NCBI GenBank assembly: GCA_030267965.1
Contig: BRYA01000486.1
Location: 19,525-64,825, forward strand
Direction: 5' to 3'
DNA from: Triparma columacea
Taxonomy: Eukaryota > Sar > Bolidophyceae > Parmales > Triparmaceae
Length of the DNA stretch: 45,301 nt
Both the position numbers and the translations under genes were made by a program. Every line of letters begins with the position of its first letter. The first letter of the stretch is position 1. Positions 31,068-43,800 of the stretch are shown in pieces. The notes below the pieces were generated by a model. The model saw only the letters and a program-made list of their open reading frames with translations, had not been told where the DNA came from and ran no database searches.

Positions 31068-34000
31068 ATGTTAGAGCGAGTCCTCTTCACCTTGGGGATA
31101 TTTCTCCTCCTCTCCTCTAACTACGTTGTTTTGGTTTGGGGATTTGGGGAGGAGGGTCCCCCATGTATTGATGTTGCCAATAAGAGGATCCGCATTGGCG
31201 ATAACATGGGAGTTGCCAACCCTTGGGGCCTTACTGTTGCCGCTAAATATGTTGAGCAACTCACAGGATGGGACATCACATGGCAGAGGATTTACGGAGG
31301 TGAGAGGTCGGGCAATGAGCGGAGTGACGAGCTGACGATGCTAGTTTGTGAACAAAATTCATGTGTGCTGAGGTTTTTCTCATCCCGGTTGCTTCGCTCG
31401 CCGCTCTTCACTTGGCTCGCCGCAGGAGGACACGCCATTCGTATGCTTGACGAGGGCCAGCTTTGCATGAGCTTGGTTGGGTCTTCACCAATTGCGACGG
31501 CCCAGCTAAGAGGCTCCAAGATGGAGGTGAGGATGGGCAAGAATTGAGGCAGAGTCACGTCCGCTTTATTGTCAATAATACGCCCTCTTCTGCAGCTCGA
31601 TTTGCTCGCTTTTCCAACCCTTTTCAATCCCTCCTTCACTCGCGGCACGCTCGTCGCAGCTCATTGGCATGCTAGATGTAATCGGAGACGCCGAGATGCT
31701 GGTAGTCAAGGAGAATATCATCTCCCCCATGGACCTCGAGGGGACGACGCTCGTTACTGTGCCGGATTCGACTGCCCAGTTCCACCTCCTCCTTATCGAG
31801 GAATTTTTCGGGGTGAAGTTTGGGAAAGTTTTGGACGTCAACAGCATCGTGGATGCGGACGGAAATGCCATAACCTTCCAAGAGGCTTGGGACAACAATC
31901 TCGTCGATGGGATCTATATGTGGGGAGCAACCCAAGCACATGCTGTCAAGAACGGAGGGCACAAGTTGATAGGCAGCAAGGAGCTTGGGGAGTGGGAGCC
32001 AGCCAAGGTCATCTTTGATGGTTTCGCATCCCGCACCGACGTATCCGGCCTTGACCCTGTCTTCACGGCGACACTTGTCGGTGTCATGGCAACTCTGAAC
32101 AAGGCATACGTCAGTAAGACGCCACGTGAGTGGGTGTTTGACTCAAGTGAGATGCAGGTAAGAAATGAAGTTTCGAGAAATCAAGAAGTATCGCAAAATA
32201 AAATAACAATCCTCTAACCCGACTTCCTACGCTCTTCGCAGGCCTCCTTGGCTACAACTGGCAGTATCACTGACGCTGCATACGAATCTTATCTTGTATA
32301 TTTGAATGGACTGATTTTCCACGATCTCGATGAGCAGCGCTCCTGCTCCCGCATCGGTTGCGGGTTGCAGGGGATGGATGCGCAAGCCTTGAAGGCAGTC
32401 AACACCTTCAAGATGGGCATCAAAGCAGCCACGAACATGCGGTCGGACGATGTCTGGGAGATTTCCACGAACGCTAATTACCTAGACCTTGCCGCATCCC
32501 AAGGTTACGGAGTTATCGCAAATATAGACGATTGGGACCAGGTGAGAAATGGAAATCGGACACGGTTTAGTTCATACATCCTTTCTACAGTGATTCCAAC
32601 CCTTTCCCCCCCGTGCTCCCCGCTATCTGCAGTCCGCAAGAGACAACATCATTGCAAACTATTCCACAATGAACCACCACGGCTACGCCTGGCACACTGG
32701 TGTGCATAGCGGGACCGCACCTCACGATAACCAATGTTCTGGTACGGTCACCATCTCATCTGACGGGACATTCTCCGACGGTCACCTGCCTGGCCTCAGC
32801 TACCATGACAACGCAGATTGCACTTGGGTCCTCGACAGCGGAACGGCATCCGACACGACTACAGTCTCTGTGTCATTCCTGGACATTGCAGGCGGTTGGG
32901 ACACTCTCACGATCTCTGACTCCTCTGGAGACGTCTTGGCCATCTTCTCTGGGCTTCAAACCCCTCCGCCGATCTCGGCTGTTGGGCCTGTGACTGTCAG
33001 GTTTGAGACAGACGGGAGACCTCAAATTTTTGCAACAGACAAAGAGGCTGGTTTCATCGCTTCTGTCGCATTTTCATCAACCCCGCCTGCAACTTGTCCT
33101 TCAGGGAAGTACGGCGCAGACTGCTCGAGCGACTACTGTTATGGTAAAACTGCATTGAGCACTTCCGGCACAATTACGACGCAACATCGCAACCTTGCTA
33201 GATGCTCCTGGGAGCTAACGGCTTCCGACGGCAAGGTTGTCCTACTTGATTTCAGCGCTATGGCACTTGAATATCTGTATGATTTTGTCGAAGTGTTCGA
33301 CAGCGATGGCACTATCCTTGGAAAATTCAGTGGCTTCTCGCCGCCACCTAAGCTCGTGTCAAGTGGGGCAACAATGACCTTGCGTCTCACTGCCGACGAC
33401 CTTGTATGGCAAGATCAGGGATTCACGGCGTCTTTCACTAGCGTTGACAGTCCCGAATTGACACCTTGCGAACCTGGGCAGTTTGGTCCCTACTGCGATT
33501 TCGATTTCTGCTTCGGATCAGTGGCAATCGAAGCGAATTCCAACGACAAGGAGGGGATCATCCTGAGTGGTAATAATTTCCCCGGGGGGTTGAACTGCGA
33601 CTGGGTGCTTGGAAAAGATGCTTCATCGTCATACGAATCGATAATTTTCTCCTTCAACGAAATCGATATGGAACCTGACCCGCAGCTTGAGGGCATCGTC
33701 CCCGACCAGCTTGTCTTCAAGGACGGAGCTTCGGATAGTGTCCTGTACACTGTGAGGGGTAAATCGTCTCAGTGCTCGAGGTCGACAGATTGCAATCCAA
33801 ACAGCGGCACAGCATCTCCTTCGGATTGCGTTTTTTCTGACCAGGCTGACGTCTTCGGAGTTTGCGTTTGTGAGGAGGGATTCGTTAATGGAGACTGTTC
33901 CGAGAGCGTTGTAACTCTCACACCGACCGAGGGCTTTGTAACGGTCTCGTATGCGACTGACATCAACGACCCTTCCGTCTTCAACGGATGGAACATGACC

Positions 34001-35707
34001 TATTCTTTCTGTGGGGGGGATGGATACGGTCCTTGTGAAGAGGTGAATACGAACCCTAGTGAAGAAAAGCTTCCATACATTGCCATTATTGCCGCTCCCG
34101 CTACTGTCATTTTCATCATCGTGATTTACTTCAGATCGCAGAGCTCTAAAGACAAGTCGCGATTGACTTTTCTAAAAAGCGAGAACGACAAGCTACATGA
34201 GGACTTGAAGATGCTTCAAAAGTATTCAAAGGAGGAAATTGACATGATCGAGGGTCAGATTCTTTCTTTTAAGTCCAACCTCGATACAAAGAAGGCTCTG
34301 GCGGCTCGAGGGAGAGCAGGCAAGCAGGCGGATGGGACTGCAAATTCTAGGAAGCATGATATTGACAAGCTCTTGATTTTGGCAATCGAATTGGAGAGCG
34401 AAGAAGTTCTCGGGAAGGGTAGCTTCGGGGAAGTACACAAGAGCAAGTACAGGGGTCTTCACGTTGCCGTGAAGACTCTCCATAGTATTGACAAGGAGAG
34501 CCTGGAGAGGTTTCAGGCCGAAATCTTGTTGATGGCTGGCTTGCATCACGAGAACGTCGTTCAGCTTGTTGGGGCGTGCTGGGAGAAAGACCTAATGGCT
34601 TTGGTCATGGAATACTGCAGCAAAGGCATGTCGTCTGATGTCATCAGAGCCGAGGGGATGAACTTCAGCTGGGATGATCCTCTACTGAAGTGGGCCATGG
34701 ACACAGGAAGAGCGATGAGGTACCTTCACAGTGTCCACTATGTCGATTTTAAGAACGAAAACAAAGAGGTGTTGGGTATAATGCACAGAGACTTGAAACC
34801 CGACAACTGTTTGGTGACGGAGACGTACACAATCAAGGTTGCCGATTTTGGGGAAGCGAGAGCGTTTAATGAGAACCTTACCATGACGCAGGTGGGAACT
34901 CCTTTGTACATCGCTCCTGAGATTGTAAAGGGCGAACACTATGATGTGAAGGCGGATGTGTTCAGTTACGCTCTGACGATTTTGGCGTGGGGACTCAAGA
35001 GGCAGAGTTTGCTCAATTGTTTATTTACAATTCTGCAAGAAGATAGGGGTAGAAAAATGACTGTAAACCCGAAGCAGAGTACTGCAAGAGTCAGCCACGC
35101 GATGATCAGCAAGGGATGGAGGCCGGGAAGGAAAATGTTGGAGGAACTCGACATCCCTGCTACTATCGTTGATCTCATCCTGCAATGCTGGAAGGAGGAT
35201 CATAAGATGAGGCCATCATTTACTGAAGTTCTGGAATATCTTGAAAAAGAAGCAAGAGCGGAAATCATGCCGTCTGCTTCGCCCGATGGAACAGATAAAA
35301 AGCATACAACAAGACGTTCCAGTACGTCGGGTGCGTTGCGGCTGCGGATCCTCGCTCAGAAGAGGGAGGAAAAAGGGTCGAAGGGGGAGGAAGAACTGAC
35401 GGTTAGGATTGATGAGGGTGCAAGAGGTCTGATGGAGCTGGAGGAGCTCTTAACGGAGAACGAAGAGAAGTACTTGGATAAGCTCAAGGGAGTCGACCTT
35501 GTGAAAAGGATGGAGAAGGACGAGAAGGTGGAGATGGAAATGGAAAGTGCGAGCAAGCTCTTGAAGGAGAGGATCGAGAAGAGGAAGGAGAAGAGGGAGA
35601 AACTGCAGCGGGAGATGGATGGGGAAGAAGCGAAATATGGGGAGGAAGGGGGGGAGGGGGGAGCAACTGAACATAGAAGTGCGATTAAGGTCGTTCCTGT
35701 TATCTAG
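31068..35707 (+). CDS. Receptor protein kinase with TauA-like solute-binding ectodomain and CUB domains
   Basis: Five exons: 31068-31299, 31426-31526, 31660-32157, 32242-32541, 32633-35707; all phases fit (1401 aa). Residues 1-27 are a signal peptide. About 35-400 match the TauA/NMT1-type periplasmic binding protein of bacterial ABC importers: GHAIRMLDEGQLCMSLVGSS then PIATAQLRG, and QEAWDNNLVDGIYMWGAT then LIGSKELGEW. Three CUB-like domains follow from about 412 (for example YDFVEVFDSDG, LGKFSGFSPPP), with Cys-rich EGF-like pieces (CPSGKYGADC, CVCEEGFVNGDC). The transmembrane helix is about 857-877 (YIAIIAAPATVIFIIVIYF). The intracellular kinase, about 965-1250, has GKGSFGEV, AVKTL, HRDLKPDN, DFGEAR and GTPLYIAPE, so all catalytic residues are present; style is TKL. 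A charged coiled tail ends the protein. I infer that it senses a small extracellular solute. Confidence 0.9.
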
Positions 35708-35746: not shown

Positions 35747-36067
35747 TCTCTGTTATCTATGTTGATGTAGTTAGCTGACGTAGAAAATATATTCATAAGT
35801 AGTCCGTAATAAGGCAAATTCTTGGTATTTTTTTTCAATCAGTAGGGCAGGCAATATTTGGAAGGGTGCAGGGGTTTGGACGTAAAGAAAGGATTCTGGA
35901 AGGGGAGAATGATTGAATAAAAAATCACTTTACATGAAAAACATTTGAAATTTACATTGAGGTCAATCGCTGACACGTACCTCAGGGGTCCATTTCGCCC
36001 CGTCATCAACGTTTCAACCATCACCTCTATCCACCGTCCTACTACTCCTGTCCTCTCCCTTTGTCCC
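35708..36067. other. Convergent intergenic region: 3' UTRs of receptor kinase and selenoprotein genes
   Basis: About 360 nt between convergent stops. It holds the duplicated block described separately and then A/T-rich sequence. On the minus strand it is the 3' UTR of the ubiquitin-deiodinase gene, where a SECIS element would be expected (see the candidate at 35959-36027). Confidence 0.5.
35959..36027 (-). promoter_or_regulatory. Candidate SECIS-like hairpin in the selenoprotein 3' UTR
   Basis: Read on the minus strand from 36027, GAGGT pairs with a downstream ACCTC, TGAAACGT pairs with ACGTGTCA (one mismatch), and an inner GGGG/CCCC stem closes a loop containing AAA. ATGA lies 5' and TGA lies 3' of the inner stem, the kind of bases that form the non-canonical SECIS core. 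The inner stem is shorter than in canonical eukaryotic SECIS elements and AA comes too soon after ATGA. I therefore give it low confidence. It starts about 40 nt after the stop codon. Confidence 0.25.
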
Positions 36068-37978
36068 TTACTTGAATCTCTGCTCCAACCAAGCTCTGAG
36101 ATCGCCGACATTATGACTGCACTCAGTTGGAGCAGAGATGAACTCCATCTTTCCGTCCTCGATAACGTACATCCTCACCGGCCAAGGAGCGAAGGCCTTT
36201 TCGAAAGGGTTGCCCGCCTCCGGAGAATCGACGACTACACTCATTGCCCCATCAGTGGGCACTCCGTAAGTGCCGAGGAATTCCTTACAGACCTCGACTC
36301 TTCTCTCCGTCGTCTTGGGTTGCTCAATTTCAACGGGCTTTCCGTCGGGAACGTACCTCCCTGACCTCACAGGCCACTCGTCATTTGCATGTGCCTCCTC
36401 TATGTACACCATCAACCAGTCCACACTCCAATCCTCTGATCCGACCATGTCCTTGAAGACAGCGGGGAGAATAGCGCGGAAGGGGGGTCAGGAGAAGGAT
36501 CCAGCGAGGACGACTAGAGGGCGCGAGGGCCTCGCGTGAGCAAGCAACGTTGTGGAACTTCCATCGAGATGGGCGAGGGGAACATCAGGAGCGATGGTAC
36601 TGGGAGAGAGATCACCAAGTCTTGCTCGGTTAAACCGGATGTAGAATGACGTTCCGATGCGACCCGCGGCAAGGCGGAGCTCATGGAGTGCGTCTGGAGT
36701 CGGGTGGATTCCAAACTCGAGGAGGGTAGTTGCCTGAATGTTCTCTGCGACTTCGATCCAATCACTTTCTCCAGATGCCTCCGCCTCTGCATAAAGGACT
36801 TGCGCCGCTTCACTCTTGCGGAGGAACTCCTCCCGAGAGAGGATACGCCTGATTCGATCGTCGTCTCCAAGGATGGAGCCCTTGAGTGCCCCGTCCTCAT
36901 CACCTCACTCGCTTCGCCCTCGCTTCTTTCCTCTCATTTCCGCAAATTTATCCTTCATTTGACCAAGAATGGCCTCTTGGTCCTTGATTTCCTTCGCGAG
37001 AATTGCGCTGTCCATCAACATTTTGACGGTATCAAATGGGGATATGGGGACAACGACAGTCTCACCGTCAATTGTAACTTTGACCTCAGGATCGGGTACG
37101 GTTTCTGCCAATTCCTTAAAGTCCGAACGGGATGCACACGCAGAATACATGCCACCACGAAGACGGAGCACAAGGTGGAGGGTGGACTCCTTCTGGATTT
37201 TATAGTCGGAGAGGATCCTGCCGTCCTCAATCTCTCGACCGCCGAAGATGAGACGCTGCTGGTCGGGGGGGATTCCTGTTGATACTTTGAGCATCTGTTT
37301 GGCGACTAAGATTGTGTCGGAGGGCATGGGATTGATAGTAATGGTCTGACCAGTTAAGGTTTTGACGTATATTTGCATGCTGCCTGGTGAGGGTGGTTGG
37401 GGTAGTGGCATACTAACTTCAGCTCTTATATCCCCGTGGGCAAGCTGCCTCTCAGTTAGCTGCTGATCCGTCTGAAGATCAAGTTTACCATGTCTGGCAA
37501 AGATACTATCGCCCTCGATTATATACTCATCATAGAGAAGTCGAGCCTTCATGGAGACCAGCAAGGGCTGCGATTGGGGTTTCGACAATAGATCCAATAA
37601 TTCTGGGTTACCCTTCCGCTGAAAATCTCCATGGCCCAAACCGCAATCGCTGGGTCGAAGGTATAATTTCTCGTAAGCATCCGTCCCTCCATGAGCATTC
37701 TCAGGACAGAGCTTTTTATCTCGAACATCGTTGAGCTCATCCTCAGGAAGGAGGTGTTTGAAGTGAGATCCGTAGAGGCCACTTAGACTGCCACCGGGAA
37801 ATTTCTCGGGAATATTGAGAGCTGAAGAGACAAGCTGAAAGAGGTCCATACCTTTGATGCGGTTGCTCACATTGAGAGGAACCGCATAACACGTGCCTCC
37901 AAGGTCCGTTTCGACATTAACCTTGATAGAAATCGAATTTGGTGGTATTGGAAGGTCTTGCGTAGCTGCTGCTGCCAT
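36068..37978 (-). CDS. Ubiquitin - deiodinase-like selenoprotein fusion (in-frame TGA = selenocysteine)
   Basis: Exons 37978-36909 and 36848-36068 (616 aa), start at ATG 37978 ([10 protein letters not shown]). Residues 201-276 are a complete ubiquitin: [10 protein letters not shown] start, [19 protein letters not shown] end, exactly 76 residues, with the Leu8/Ile44/Val70 patch, Gly75-Gly76 and Lys6, 27 and 63, but Gln11, Met29, Ser33 and Arg48. The C-terminal part is a thioredoxin-fold iodothyronine-deiodinase-like domain: [13 protein letters not shown] at 36490-36488, [11 protein letters not shown], then [15 protein letters not shown] and a C-terminal [12 protein letters not shown]. The TGA sits exactly where family members carry selenocysteine (before Pro-Pro) and the frame stays open to a TAA. 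A first in-frame TGA (36907-36905) is removed by a 60-nt GTGAGG...AATCAG intron. Deiodinases reductively remove iodine; the algal substrate is unknown. Confidence 0.8.
36488..36490 (-). other. In-frame TGA read as selenocysteine (codon 477)
   Basis: The codon follows GSFS and precedes PPF, the deiodinase active-site context (Ser-Cys/Ser-Thr-Sec-Pro-Pro in animals). Both flanks show deiodinase-type sequence in the same frame, so treating it as a stop would discard a conserved domain. Confidence 0.8.
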
Positions 37979-38077
37979 ACTGCGTTTTGCTGTTGCCTGG
38001 AAACTGGAAACCCACAAATTAATAAATCTGGAAAAAGGAACCCACCCCAAATCTCACCACAAATCTAGAAGTAAAAA
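37979..38077. promoter_or_regulatory. 99-bp bidirectional promoter, ubiquitin-deiodinase / PPR-TrmB
   Basis: Only 99 nt separate the two divergent ATGs. Both leaders and promoters must fit here or overlap coding sequence. No TATA box is evident. Co-expression of the two genes is a reasonable but untested inference. Confidence 0.6.
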
Positions 38078-40326
38078 ATGAATGATAACGCCAATTTCAC
38101 GCAAAATAAGCGTCAAAAGAACAACAACAAACAACGAAACACGACCACACATTTCAAATCATCCTCACATACCTCATACTCCAAACTCTCCCCCACCTCT
38201 CGATCCCCCTCTCGCTCACCTTCCAAAACCCCTCCCTCAAAGTCCTCCTTATCCTCCACCACCCTAGCCTTAAACACCACCCTCCAATCCTGTTCCCTTC
38301 GTAAAGATGGTCTCCTAGCTCTAACAACCCTCCAATCCACCCCGACCTCTCTTTACGATAACCATCATTGTACTATGACTGTAAACGCATTAGTACGATC
38401 CGGTCGTACTAACGAGGCTGAGGATGTAGTTAGAAGTGGTAAGTACTTCAAAGGTATAGTACCAACACAAGCATGGTGTGCGTTAATAAAGGGGTACGCA
38501 CACGAAGGGAATCTCGGGAAAATCGAGACTTGTGTTAACACCGTTTGTGAGAAGAATAGGAAAGGGGTGTTTGGGCCGAACGTTAGGGTTATTAATACCG
38601 TACTTAGAGGAATACTATGGGGTGGTGGGGGTGGGAAGGGTGGGTGTATGGATCGGTGTATTAATGTATACGAACAGTGGTTTGGGGGGGAGGGGATGTA
38701 CGATGGGAGTAGTATAGAGTATGTTGTCAAGGTGCTGGGGAGGGTTGGAAGGATGAAGGAGGCTGAGAGTTGGGTCAGGAAATACGGGAAGGTTAGAGGT
38801 TGGTGTAAGGGTGTGTTCAAGCCTGGGGAGGAGAACGTTGAGGGGGGGGTGGGGGAAGAGGAGGGGGAAACGTGGTGCGTGGCTAGTCTGGCGATTGGGA
38901 GAGGGTATATGGTTGAGGGGAAAACTAGGAAGGGAGTGGAGTGGTGTAGGAGGGGAGAAGCTTGTGGGAGGGCAATGGGGGAAGGGGGGGAAGGGAAGGA
39001 TGGACATTCTAATGGGGGAGAGAAGAAGGGGGAGGAAAAGAAAGGGGGCGATAAAATTGGAGGGAAGAGAGGGAGGGGGGAAGTCGATGAGGGGAGAGAG
39101 GAAAGCAACAGACTCTACAGGGGATTCAGGATCAAGGATGTCATGGCTGACCTTAAGGAGGCACGGGAGTGGGGGGAGAGAAAGATGAAAGAGGAGGAGG
39201 AGGAAGAGGAGGGCAATAAGGATGGTGGAGGGAATAAGAAAAACGACAAGGGCAAAAGGGCTGATAGTAGGAGAAGGCTAATCTTCAGAGGGGGGGGAGG
39301 GAGCACCATGGTAAAGGGGGAGAAGGAGGAGGCAAGGGAAGCCGTGGAGTGGGACAAAGTATGGGAAAGGGAAGGGAAGGGGGAGAGGAAGAGATTTGTT
39401 GAACTTGGATGCGGGGGGGGAGAATGGATCGTTAATCAGGCAAAGGCTAGGTGAGGGGAAGAGAGGGGGGGGGGGAGATGGAGAGACACAAGACACAAGC
39501 AGAACATAGGATTATTTGCGCAGTCCAGTCATCCAACCCGCTTTCCCCTCATCACCCACGCTCACCTATAAACAGGAGTGATTCCAACTGGGTAGGCGTA
39601 GAGATGCGTCGCGACCGTCTCTACAACGGTTACGTAAAGTCGATCCTCCACCCTTCCGGCCCCTTAACGAACGTCGCCTTCGTCGGTGACGAGGCCGGTG
39701 CATTCCTGGCCGGTGAAAGGGAGGGAACGTGGGACGGAGCTTTTGTTAACCACCCGGAACCACCGACTCAGGCGAACGGGGAGGGGGAGAACCATATGTG
39801 CAACGAGGGGAATTTGAGGGAGATATGGAGGGGGCTTAAGGGGGGGGGGAAGCTGGTCATCGTCGGGGACAACGCGGGGTACGTGAGGAGCATAGCTCGG
39901 AACATCAGCGGGATGGTCGGAGAGGGTATGGGGTGGGCCAATGACGAAGGGGCGGCTGTGGGGGGGGGGGGACTTAGGAGAATGGAGAGCGTTAAGGGGA
40001 AAGGAGGGTACGGGGTAGACGTGCTTAGCGGTAAACCGGGGAGGGCGGTGGGGTATGAGGAGGGGGGACAGAGCTACTTTGACGGGCTCTGGAAGACGGG
40101 GGCGGGGAGCTTTAGTAGTAGGGAGATTAGGTATGTTGTGGCGGTTAGGAAGACGGGGAGGGTGGAGATGGGGGGAGGGGGGAAGGGGGAGAAGGGGGAG
40201 GGGGGGAAGAAAAAGGGGAAAAAGAAAAACGCGGCGAAACAGGCGAGGAGGAATCAGAGGAGACTCGAGAAGAAGGGGGAAGGGGAAATCGCGAGACCGA
40301 TATTGACAATGCCGTCGGGGAAGTGA
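38078..40326 (+). CDS. PPR - tRNA (guanine-N7) methyltransferase (TrmB) fusion
   Basis: Exons 38078-39450 and 39576-40326, phase 2 (CTAG|GTGAGG...AACAG|G), 707 aa. The N-terminus is Asn/Lys/Ser-rich. Next come pentatricopeptide-like helices (YDNHHCTMTVNALVRSGRTN, TQAWCALIKGYAHEGNLGKI, SIEYVVKVLGRVGRMKEAES). A low-complexity Gly/Glu/Lys region follows, then a class I methyltransferase: FVELGCGGGEWIVNQAKAR is the SAM-binding motif I, NWVGVEMRRDRLYNGY is motif II, and WDGAFVNHPEPPTQ replaces the INFPDPW catalytic-loop motif of TrmB. TrmB makes m7G46 in tRNA. The fusion suggests that the PPR part guides the methyltransferase to an organellar RNA; I recall PPR-TGM proteins of this kind being described from diatoms. 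The C-terminus is very Lys/Gly-rich. Confidence 0.8.
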
Positions 40327-40838: not shown

Positions 40839-43800
40839 ATGACGAGCATTGTTATCCTAAGTTGCCTCGTGTTCGTCGCGCATTACTCGTTTGAAAGTCT
40901 TAAGCATGAAGATCTCACGCATGTCCAAAACCAAGGGTATGCAGTTGGCCACGATGCTTCGGTCGTCGCGTGTATAAACGGGAAGGACGTCGAAGGCATT
41001 CTGAATGGTAGCGCCATGGAGGGCGTCCTGAATGGAGCCGCTGTTGACAAGAAACCTAACGCTCCCGGTGGACAATCACTCACGTGGGAATGGAAGGCGT
41101 CTGGAGCACTCTCGACGACCGCCGACCAATACACCTCCGACCTATTCGACGAGGAGGAGATATACAAGCTGTTCGAAGGAAATTCCTTACTTCTCGACGA
41201 CAGATGTAGTTTAGGAAAGCCGAAAGTTCTGTCAAAACGACGAAACGACGAGACTGATTTGGCCTTTACGGCTCTCCCGACGAGAGGTGGCCACACCAAG
41301 CCCCTTGCCCTCCACACGTATCAGTGTAGGGAGCTTCGAGGAGGCGAGCTGTCGCTTTTCGACGGCAGTGGCGAAAGTCCATCTCCTAGGCTGCTCGGTG
41401 CTTGTGAATTGGAGCAAGTTGAGTGGGATTCCGGAGCGCTTTCGACGGGATATTCTCAAAAAGGTTTCTATGCCGATGTAAGCGACGGGGAGATCGAGCT
41501 CTCGCTGATACTTGGCGACCGCGCAGGTTGCGAACAGCTTCTTTATGGGCTGAAGGACGGTCATAATTTCAAGACTGTCAAAGCATCAGACTTACCAACG
41601 ACGGGAGATGTTTATGGCGAGACTGTTGCCGACCTCCGTAATAATGAAGGCGACCTCAGTTTCATCTATAATGAGCTCGAGCAGGTGAGACCGCGATACG
41701 TCTAGAATTCTCTAATCAACAGTCCACCTGTAATTAACCCCTCCCTTCTGATTCAATCCCTCGCAGCACACCGACACGGTCGAAGGAATGTTGCAGAGCA
41801 TAATAAACTATATCATAACGCTAGACAAGATGGGCCAACTCAGTACTTCCAACCATTCGCTCGCCCCCAAGGCACATATGGGGAGAAGAATTTTGGGAAA
41901 CGCTGTCCTGTATAATCTGTCAGATCCGATCTCGGCGGCCGCTGCTCCAAAGGGCACCAATGCAGACCCTAGTATAGCGCGCGACAAGCTGTTAAGGGAA
42001 CAGCTGCCACCCCCCGACGACGAATATTGTAGAGCAGGCCGGGCGATTCTTGTTGAGATAGGTAAGAAGCTCAAGTGCGGCATGGATAACGACAGCTTTC
42101 GCGCAGCACGGCAAGATGGTCACGCCACCACTTTCTTCCCAAAATAGAACTGTGCTGCCGTCCCGATGTGACTGTAACCCAACTAATGAAAATGTTCGCG
42201 ATTTGTTTCGCTGCTCGCTCTGCTCCTCACAGATAATAAGAAGGATGACAAGTACTTTATGACACTGGCGGCATACCGTGGACCCTTTAAGCTCGCATTT
42301 AACGGTAGAAAGAACGAACTCTTGGAAGGATGGGTGTTACTTCCCGACGAAGGCATCGCAATTGGCCACGATGTTTCGGTCGTCGCGTGTATAAACGGGA
42401 AGGACGTCGAAGACATTCTGAATGGTAGCGCCATGGAGGGTGTCCTGAATGAAGCCGCTGTTGACAAGAAACCTAACGCTCCCGGTGGACAATCACTCAG
42501 ATTGGATTGGAAGGCGTCTGGAGCACTCTCGACATACGCTGACCAATATACCTCCGACCTATTCGACGACGAGGAGATGGACAAGCTCTTCGAAGGAAAT
42601 TCCATACTTCTCGACGACGGATGTAGTTTAGGAAAGCCGAAAATCCTGTCAAAACGACGAAACGACGAGACTGAATTGGCCTTTACGGCTCTCCCGGCGA
42701 TAGGTGCCCATACCAAGCCCCTTGCCCTTCACACGTATCAGTGTTGGGAGCTTCGAGGAGGGGAGCTGAAGCTTTTCGACGGCAGTTGCGAAAGTCCATC
42801 TCCTTGGCTGCTCAGTGCTTGTGAATTGGAGCAAGTTGAGTGGTATTCCGGAGCGCTTTCGATGACATATTCTCAAGAGGGTTTCTACACCGATGTAAGC
42901 GACGGGGAGATCGAGGTCTCGCGCGAGGAGCTGATACTTGGCGACCGCGCAGGTTGCGGACAGCTTCTTTATGGGTTGAAGGACGGTCATAATTTCAAGA
43001 CTGTCAAAGCATCAGACTTACCGACGGGAGATGTTTATAACGAGACTTTTGTCGACCTCGGTATTAATGATAGCGACCTTTCAGGGGACAGGCTGCCACT
43101 TCTCGACGACGAAGATTGTAGATCAGCAGTGCGAATTATTCTCATTTATGAAGGTGAGCATCGAGGAGAAGTTTAAGTGCGTCATGAATAATGACAACCG
43201 TGACGGAGCAAGGCCAGATCACCCCGATGTCTTCCTTCAAAAAACACTGCTACCGACCCGATTCGACTGTAACGCAAACTAATGAAAACATATCGTGATT
43301 TGCTTCGCTCCTTGCAGAGTTTGGGGAGGACGGTATTTCGGACGTAGAGGAGCCCACTGTCGACGTAGGTGTGTGCAAGGCGGATAGTTCCGTTGCCGAT
43401 GAGGCTGAGGAGGCCGTGAAAGGTAAGAAGAGGGGGAGAGGGGGAGATGGGAGAAGGGTTGACTTGGAAGGTGTCTTGACGAAACCGCCGACAAGGAGGC
43501 CAGTCTGGAGGGCCTGTTGAACAGGCAGCAGTTGACGATGAGGAAGGGGTCGACAGCTTGTATCTTTGCATGCCCTCATTAACCCTTACCTTCACCTTCT
43601 AACCCCTTCGACCTCCCTCAACCCCCCCTTTCCCCCACCCCCCCTCCGACCACCAACAGCCATTTATCCCCCCGTTGTTGACGAGACCGTCCCTATGAAC
43701 ACTAGCCTCCACAATGTGATTGACAAATACCTTGTTGATCCTCAAGTCAAGAACGACTACTCTCAAAGAAAAGGATCCCGCGACTTTGAGGAGAGGAGGA

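Follow-up and report, generated by a model that had tools for sequence, protein, structure and literature searches.

A ubiquitin-like module and a deiodinase-type selenoprotein module in one reading frame, parted by an in-frame UGA, in the bolidophyte Triparma columacea

Triparma columacea, a bolidophyte of the order Parmales, is a tiny marine alga with silica scales. The genome assembly comprises 37.85 Mb in 789 contigs, and the stretch of DNA analysed here (the window, 45,301 nucleotides) comes from a contig of 64,825 bases. On the minus strand of the window a reading frame runs from an ATG at 37978 to a TAA at 36068-36070 (636 codons plus the final TAA) and contains exactly two internal stops, both TGA, namely at codon 358 (UGA1, 36905-36907) and at codon 497 (UGA2, 36488-36490). 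An earlier note on this DNA had proposed that ubiquitin and a deiodinase share one frame; this holds for the minus strand, which the note had left unspecified, with two TGAs inside the frame, while the plus strand has many stops between 36068 and 37978. The encoded modules are, in order, an N-terminal extension (codons 1-200, 37379-37978), a divergent ubiquitin ending in RLRGG followed by Met (codons 201-276, 37151-37378), an 81-residue extension ending KKRGRSE (36908-37150) and, after UGA1 at the border between both halves, the deiodinase part (36071-36904), in which UGA2 is the Sec codon of a catalytic site reading GSFS-U-PPFR. A SECIS-like hairpin lies in the 3′UTR on the same strand (35959-36027), with a core of the form ATGAC...AAA...TGAG at 35981-36006. 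The deposited protein for this locus (TrCOL_g9636, here P0124) is identical over its 276 residues to the translation of this frame minus a 60-nt segment with GTGAGG...AATCAG borders (36849-36908, minus strand) that includes UGA1.

About 100 bases (37979-38077) lie between the ATG of the frame and a divergent ORF (38078-39454) that matches PPR weakly, and given this short gap one promoter may serve both genes. A receptor-like kinase ORF with CUB and protein kinase domains (32669-35707, plus strand) is convergent with the deiodinase gene. Farther away on the plus strand are two similar tandem ORFs (40839-41705 and 42259-43176), both with a GGELxLFDGS stretch and neither with a Pfam match at E 0.01.

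The C-terminal part of the frame is of the iodothyronine-deiodinase type, as it matches PF00837 (approximately 36077-36601) with 87.8 bits against a curated cut-off of 27 and resembles the DIO3 chain 4tr3 (E 2.5e-16). The TGA read by the earlier note as the selenocysteine position was corroborated by alignment, in which UGA2 falls opposite the Cys of P0133-P0140; the window site GSFS-U-PPF corresponds to GSYT-C-PPF in P0133-P0139 and to GSIS-C-PPF in P0140, and one of these Cys-bearing relatives, P0134, is named as bacterial. The short environmental ORF P0131 has Gly opposite UGA2 and an upstream part unlike the family. A PF00837 search of the genome returned three matches, all three with a TGA inside. 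The YIEEAH motif is retained in the window protein, and the QHR stretch of DIO3, whose His presumably has a role in iodothyronine use, reads QPK; because of this replacement, iodothyronine is a doubtful substrate for the window enzyme. Overall, the predicted structure was poor, with a mean pLDDT of 44.6, and it was better solely over the deiodinase domain. Protein searches with the joined ubiquitin-deiodinase query were swamped by polyubiquitin, whereas a search limited to the C-terminal extension plus deiodinase retrieved P0121 and P0122 only, and a deiodinase-only search retrieved 18 proteins, P0124 being the only one named as algal. A scan of viral contigs turned up no relative.

The ubiquitin-like domain was recognized by PF00240 with 78.3 bits. 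A complete 76-residue ubiquitin with an RLRGG-Met end had been reported in the earlier note, and such a domain is present, but it is identical to canonical ubiquitin at 54 of 76 residues and is preceded by 200 others. The substitutions listed for it were all found, with K11, K29, K33 and K48 replaced and K6, K27 and K63 retained. In the five ubiquitin copies compared, the hydrophobic patch and the GG end (L8, I44, H68, V70, G75 and G76) are invariably kept and position 48 is occupied by R (four copies) or T (one copy), so that the K48 used for degradative chains is absent. Because K48 is replaced in all five, the module is, judged by its residues, ubiquitin-like rather than bona fide ubiquitin. 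Since it sits internally, cleavage by a deubiquitinase at the retained GG-Met would free the C-terminal extension joined to the deiodinase and not the enzyme alone. The N-terminal extension has no Pfam family at E 1 and no further match in the genome at E 0.001, including in the second locus described below, and is found in frame also in the environmental relatives P0121 and P0122. Elsewhere in the genome (C241:16429-19062) four clustered matches to divergent ubiquitin domains were detected, with 43-55% identity to the query, two of which have an in-frame TAG inside the matched stretch.

The second deiodinase locus (L002, on contig C708) repeats the order found in the window from the ubiquitin on, with a ubiquitin-like domain, an extension ending KRKRE, a TGA and a deiodinase containing a TGA, and has TGA also as the final stop of the deiodinase. 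Between the window and L002, dN was 0.46 and dS 1.99 for the ubiquitin part plus extension, and dN 0.19 and dS 2.93 after UGA2; between the two UGAs dN was 0.30 and dS was not computable. As the synonymous sites are saturated, the similarity that remains between the two loci is likely to be under selection. The order from ubiquitin onwards and the place of UGA1 recur at this synonymously saturated locus, which by comparison of the copies means that the frame common to the ubiquitin-like part and the deiodinase is kept and not a product of chance. Contig C708 also carries a tandem duplication of the ubiquitin-like gene (L025, 909-2161 and 3638-4894), with 93% identity over 1,257 aligned bases. 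The tandem copy, upstream of L002, has UGA1 at the same place and breaks off after the SLL of SLLGDD; a tblastn search of it with the deiodinase part matched the first 23 residues only, besides a chance match at E 5.3. Its ubiquitin ORF compared to that of its sister gave dN 0.097 and dS 0.228. Extensions related to the 81 residues of the window were found in L002, in its tandem copy and in P0121 and P0122, and the environmental relatives P0121-P0123 were 87-97% identical. Another environmental ORF of 140 residues, P0132, spans the UGA1-to-UGA2 part of L002 and has an initial Met in place of a Ser of L002; since the corresponding codon of the tandem copy is TTG, this Met may be an alternative start assigned by the gene-caller.

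The part of the frame between the two UGAs is also partly conserved. The window encodes SILGDD (36860-36877, minus strand) and L002 encodes SLLGDD, equally far upstream of its deiodinase, with LGDD codons that differ at third positions only. When the bases of the window segment were shuffled, none of 20000 shuffles equalled the observed SxLGDD score on the anchored diagonal, and 1 of 4000 did so when any diagonal was allowed. This stretch is therefore conserved as protein, which suggests that it is translated in both copies, and an intron at this place would prevent its translation. The residues directly after UGA1 were not conserved between the window and L002, and the LGDD codons start 36 nt (window) or 51 nt (L002) from UGA1. 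Neither locus has an in-frame Met between UGA1 and UGA2, and initiation at AUG is thus impossible in that interval.

The third deiodinase locus (L003, C78:28813-32130, minus strand) has a different upstream partner, with two ZZ zinc-finger stretches (PF00569) followed by an in-frame TGA and then a deiodinase that carries a Sec TGA of its own. An ATG stands 12 nt after the junction TGA, and an apparent intron of 63 nt, inferred from frame and spacing, lies farther downstream with a GTGAGG donor that contains an in-frame TGA. Because the junction TGA of L003 is not at the position homologous to UGA1 relative to the deiodinase, it is taken as a separate event.

The earlier note had made a selenoprotein reading depend on the presence of Sec machinery in the genome, and tRNA-Sec, SepSecS and a Sec-type glutathione peroxidase were all detected. 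Two tRNA-Sec loci scored above the cut-off (64.5 and 61.7 bits), both with a UCA anticodon arm, although ARAGORN called no tRNA in either; a third candidate below the cut-off reads as tRNA-Ser. SepSecS is present in three pieces. The glutathione peroxidase (L030, C173:50431-50751, minus strand) has an in-frame TGA in the context NVASRUGATSREY, and its 3′UTR, which has no match to the compact hairpin pattern described below, contains a long hairpin starting with ATGAC that is likely a type II SECIS. A genome search with TIGR00475 for eEFSec gave 23 matches, none above the cut-off, the best two of which we take to be EF-Tu and EF-1alpha like. Among other candidate selenoprotein families, no TGA-containing match was found in the genome for Rdx, Sep15_SelM or AhpC-TSA_2, and 2 of the 14 AhpC-TSA matches had a TGA, with one of the two looking like a normal intron.

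Compact SECIS-like hairpins were found 3′ of all three deiodinases, each combining AUGAC and a GA on the opposing side with a short stem and a loop rich in A. Shuffled sequences matched the pattern as well in 6, 1 and 4 of 300 cases for the three loci, respectively, counts that are biased since the pattern was written after the hairpins had been seen. The window and L002 hairpins have the 12-mer GTTGATGACGGG in common (8 of 2000 shuffles) and folding z-scores of -4.2 and -2.9, respectively; the energy of the L003 hairpin is weak (-7.0), and a different fold was preferred with the shortest flank. The Rfam SECIS_1 model retrieved nothing in the whole genome up to E 10, nor did any Rfam SECIS family match at E 10 around the window gene, L002, L003 or L030. 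An eSECIS-like search model given in excerpts of PMC11227280 has an upper stem of 7-15 bp; compared to that model, the stem of the window hairpin, about 5 bp, is too short, and those of L002 and L003 just reach its minimum and contain a bulge.

The case for recoding of UGA1 is made by the frame common to both halves, by the absence of a Met between the UGAs and by the conserved LGDD. Also counted in its favor were the SECIS-like hairpins after all three deiodinases and L003, likewise an ORF (there with ZZ fingers) followed by an in-frame TGA and a deiodinase. We infer a single minus-strand gene in which recoding of UGA1 would occur part of the time and one mRNA could yield either a ubiquitin-like protein or a fusion with two Sec residues, an explanation we hold to be evenly balanced between right and wrong. 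Ribosomes would start at the ubiquitin-like part or upstream of it, and those stopping at UGA1 would release a 357-residue protein made of the N-terminal extension, the ubiquitin-like domain and the C-terminal extension. The 3′UTR hairpin, acting as a SECIS element, would permit UGA1 to be read as Sec or as another residue, and translation would then run on into the deiodinase, which would be fused to the upstream modules and have its catalytic Sec at UGA2. Selenium supply could set the ratio of both products, and the fusion enzyme would presumably dehalogenate some substrate. Counted against recoding were the unconserved residues right after UGA1, the short stem of the window hairpin, the negative Rfam SECIS_1 and eEFSec searches and the terminal TGA of L002, with which UGA would be both Sec codon and terminator in the same mRNA. 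A broader proposal, that UGA1 is a selenium-dependent stop/go gate used at two module junctions (ubiquitin and ZZ finger) through compact SECIS elements, is tentative and more probably wrong than right. If it were true, a shortage of Sec-tRNA would give the ubiquitin-like protein and a plentiful supply the two-Sec fusion.

Other observations counted against recoding are those expected if UGA1 were a plain stop, with the ubiquitin-like protein and the deiodinase as separate products and the latter expressed from a nested promoter or an alternative first exon, by initiation at a non-AUG codon or, for L003, by reinitiation. The tandem copy keeps its ubiquitin ORF, at the dN and dS given above, and ends at the same TGA without a deiodinase, hence UGA1 can function as a normal stop; the ORFs of P0121 and P0122 stop after ...KKRGRSE, as the window frame would at UGA1; the junction TGA of L003, not homologous to UGA1, is followed by an ATG within 12 nt; and P0132 starts with Met near UGA1, where a true ATG would favor separate products. 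In the scanned loci, ORFs with 300 codons or more ended in TGA in 15 cases, TAA in 12 and TAG in 5, hence a TGA at the junction is in itself unremarkable. However, the frame is shared in all three deiodinase loci and the two ubiquitin-type copies lack an in-frame Met before UGA2. Acceptor candidates upstream of LGDD, as an alternative first exon would use, are unlike in phase or quality between the window and L002, and a promoter with its 5′UTR would not fit outside the ubiquitin ORF, because of the 36 and 51 nt that part UGA1 from LGDD. Separate products thus appear unlikely.

Removal of UGA1 by the 60-nt intron (36849-36908), which would leave a spliced mRNA for a ubiquitin-like/deiodinase fusion made constitutively and with a single Sec, seems to us improbable but is a genuine rival. 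The segment put forward as an intron in the earlier note does exist and does keep the frame, but its status as an intron is doubtful since it encodes the conserved SxLGDD. Also counted against recoding, the deposited P0124 splices UGA1 out at an identical junction, and the GTGAGG donor is that of three of four reference introns (the apparent 63-nt intron of L003 and the two in SepSecS; that of L046 is GTGAGT). These reference introns were themselves inferred from frame and homology, with one SepSecS acceptor uncertain. The deposited model, in turn, was built from protein hints, as the gene predictions for T. columacea came from BRAKER2 supplied solely with a protein database, according to excerpts of PMC10328945. 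The 20 bases before the acceptor include 8 pyrimidines in the window vs 11 in L003, 14 and 16 in SepSecS and 19 in L046, the short L003 intron being close to the window segment. We enumerated in-frame GT-AG introns of 20-899 nt whose donor is at most 700 nt upstream and whose excision eliminates UGA1 and leaves the frame open to UGA2. LGDD was kept by 39 of the 321 possibilities in the window and by 40 of the 378 in L002, and just one of these 79, a 162-nt window intron with a GAG acceptor, has a GTRAG donor; no well-formed intron present in both copies keeps LGDD. With GTRAG donors, the introns of up to 320 nt that could remove UGA1 in frame from L002 measure 90 or 105 nt and would delete still more conserved codons. 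An in-frame L002 intron of 276 nt, whose GTATGT donor coincides with the GG-Met codons and whose CAG acceptor precedes LGDD, would connect ubiquitin with the deiodinase; it was set aside as less probable because it removes the constrained C-terminal extension and nothing like it was seen in the window. A pseudogene or assembly artefact, to which two in-frame stops and the fragmentation into 789 contigs might point, is very improbable given that both halves are constrained in two loci, that close environmental relatives (P0121-P0123) exist and that the internal sites of the window and L002 are always TGA, never TAA or TAG.

If UGA1 is recoded, as in our preferred reading, a single codon would choose between a signalling-type module and a selenoenzyme fusion, and Sec decoding would be used for regulation, outside the active site. 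Even if UGA1 is spliced out, a ubiquitin-like/selenoenzyme architecture in the sister group of diatoms would be new to the open-access PubMed Central literature, in which we found, in line with the earlier note, no description of a ubiquitin-deiodinase or ubiquitin-selenoprotein fusion. The locus also illustrates how, at an in-frame UGA on a module border, automatic annotation placed an intron without RNA support.

Several known systems share individual features with this gene. Ubiquitin-ribosomal protein fusion genes encode ubiquitin ending in RLRGG followed by a C-terminal extension, an arrangement also seen in the window; here, in contrast, the ubiquitin is internal and divergent (54/76), K48 is missing and the enzyme comes after an in-frame UGA. 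With DIO1-3 (PF00837) and the algal DIO selenoproteins, a family listed among algal selenoproteins in excerpts of PMC7539508, the window protein shares the profile match, the Sec before PPF and YIEEAH, but differs by the modules placed upstream (ubiquitin-like in the window, ZZ in L003) and by QPK instead of the QHR of DIO3. Domain fusions of algal selenoproteins, namely SELENOM-pVHL, SELENOM-ShKT and GST-MSRA, likewise join a selenoprotein module in frame with another domain; the excerpts of PMC7539508 that describe them mention neither a ubiquitin or DIO partner nor a junction UGA, and neither Triparma nor Bolidophyceae is named in its main text. Selenoprotein P, according to excerpts of PMC5133445, has several UGAs per frame, and early termination gives shorter proteins in a manner regulated by selenium availability. 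By analogy, the window gene would resemble it in its multiple UGAs and in the proposed product of an early UGA, with the difference that UGA1 would here part two unrelated modules, outside the redox site.
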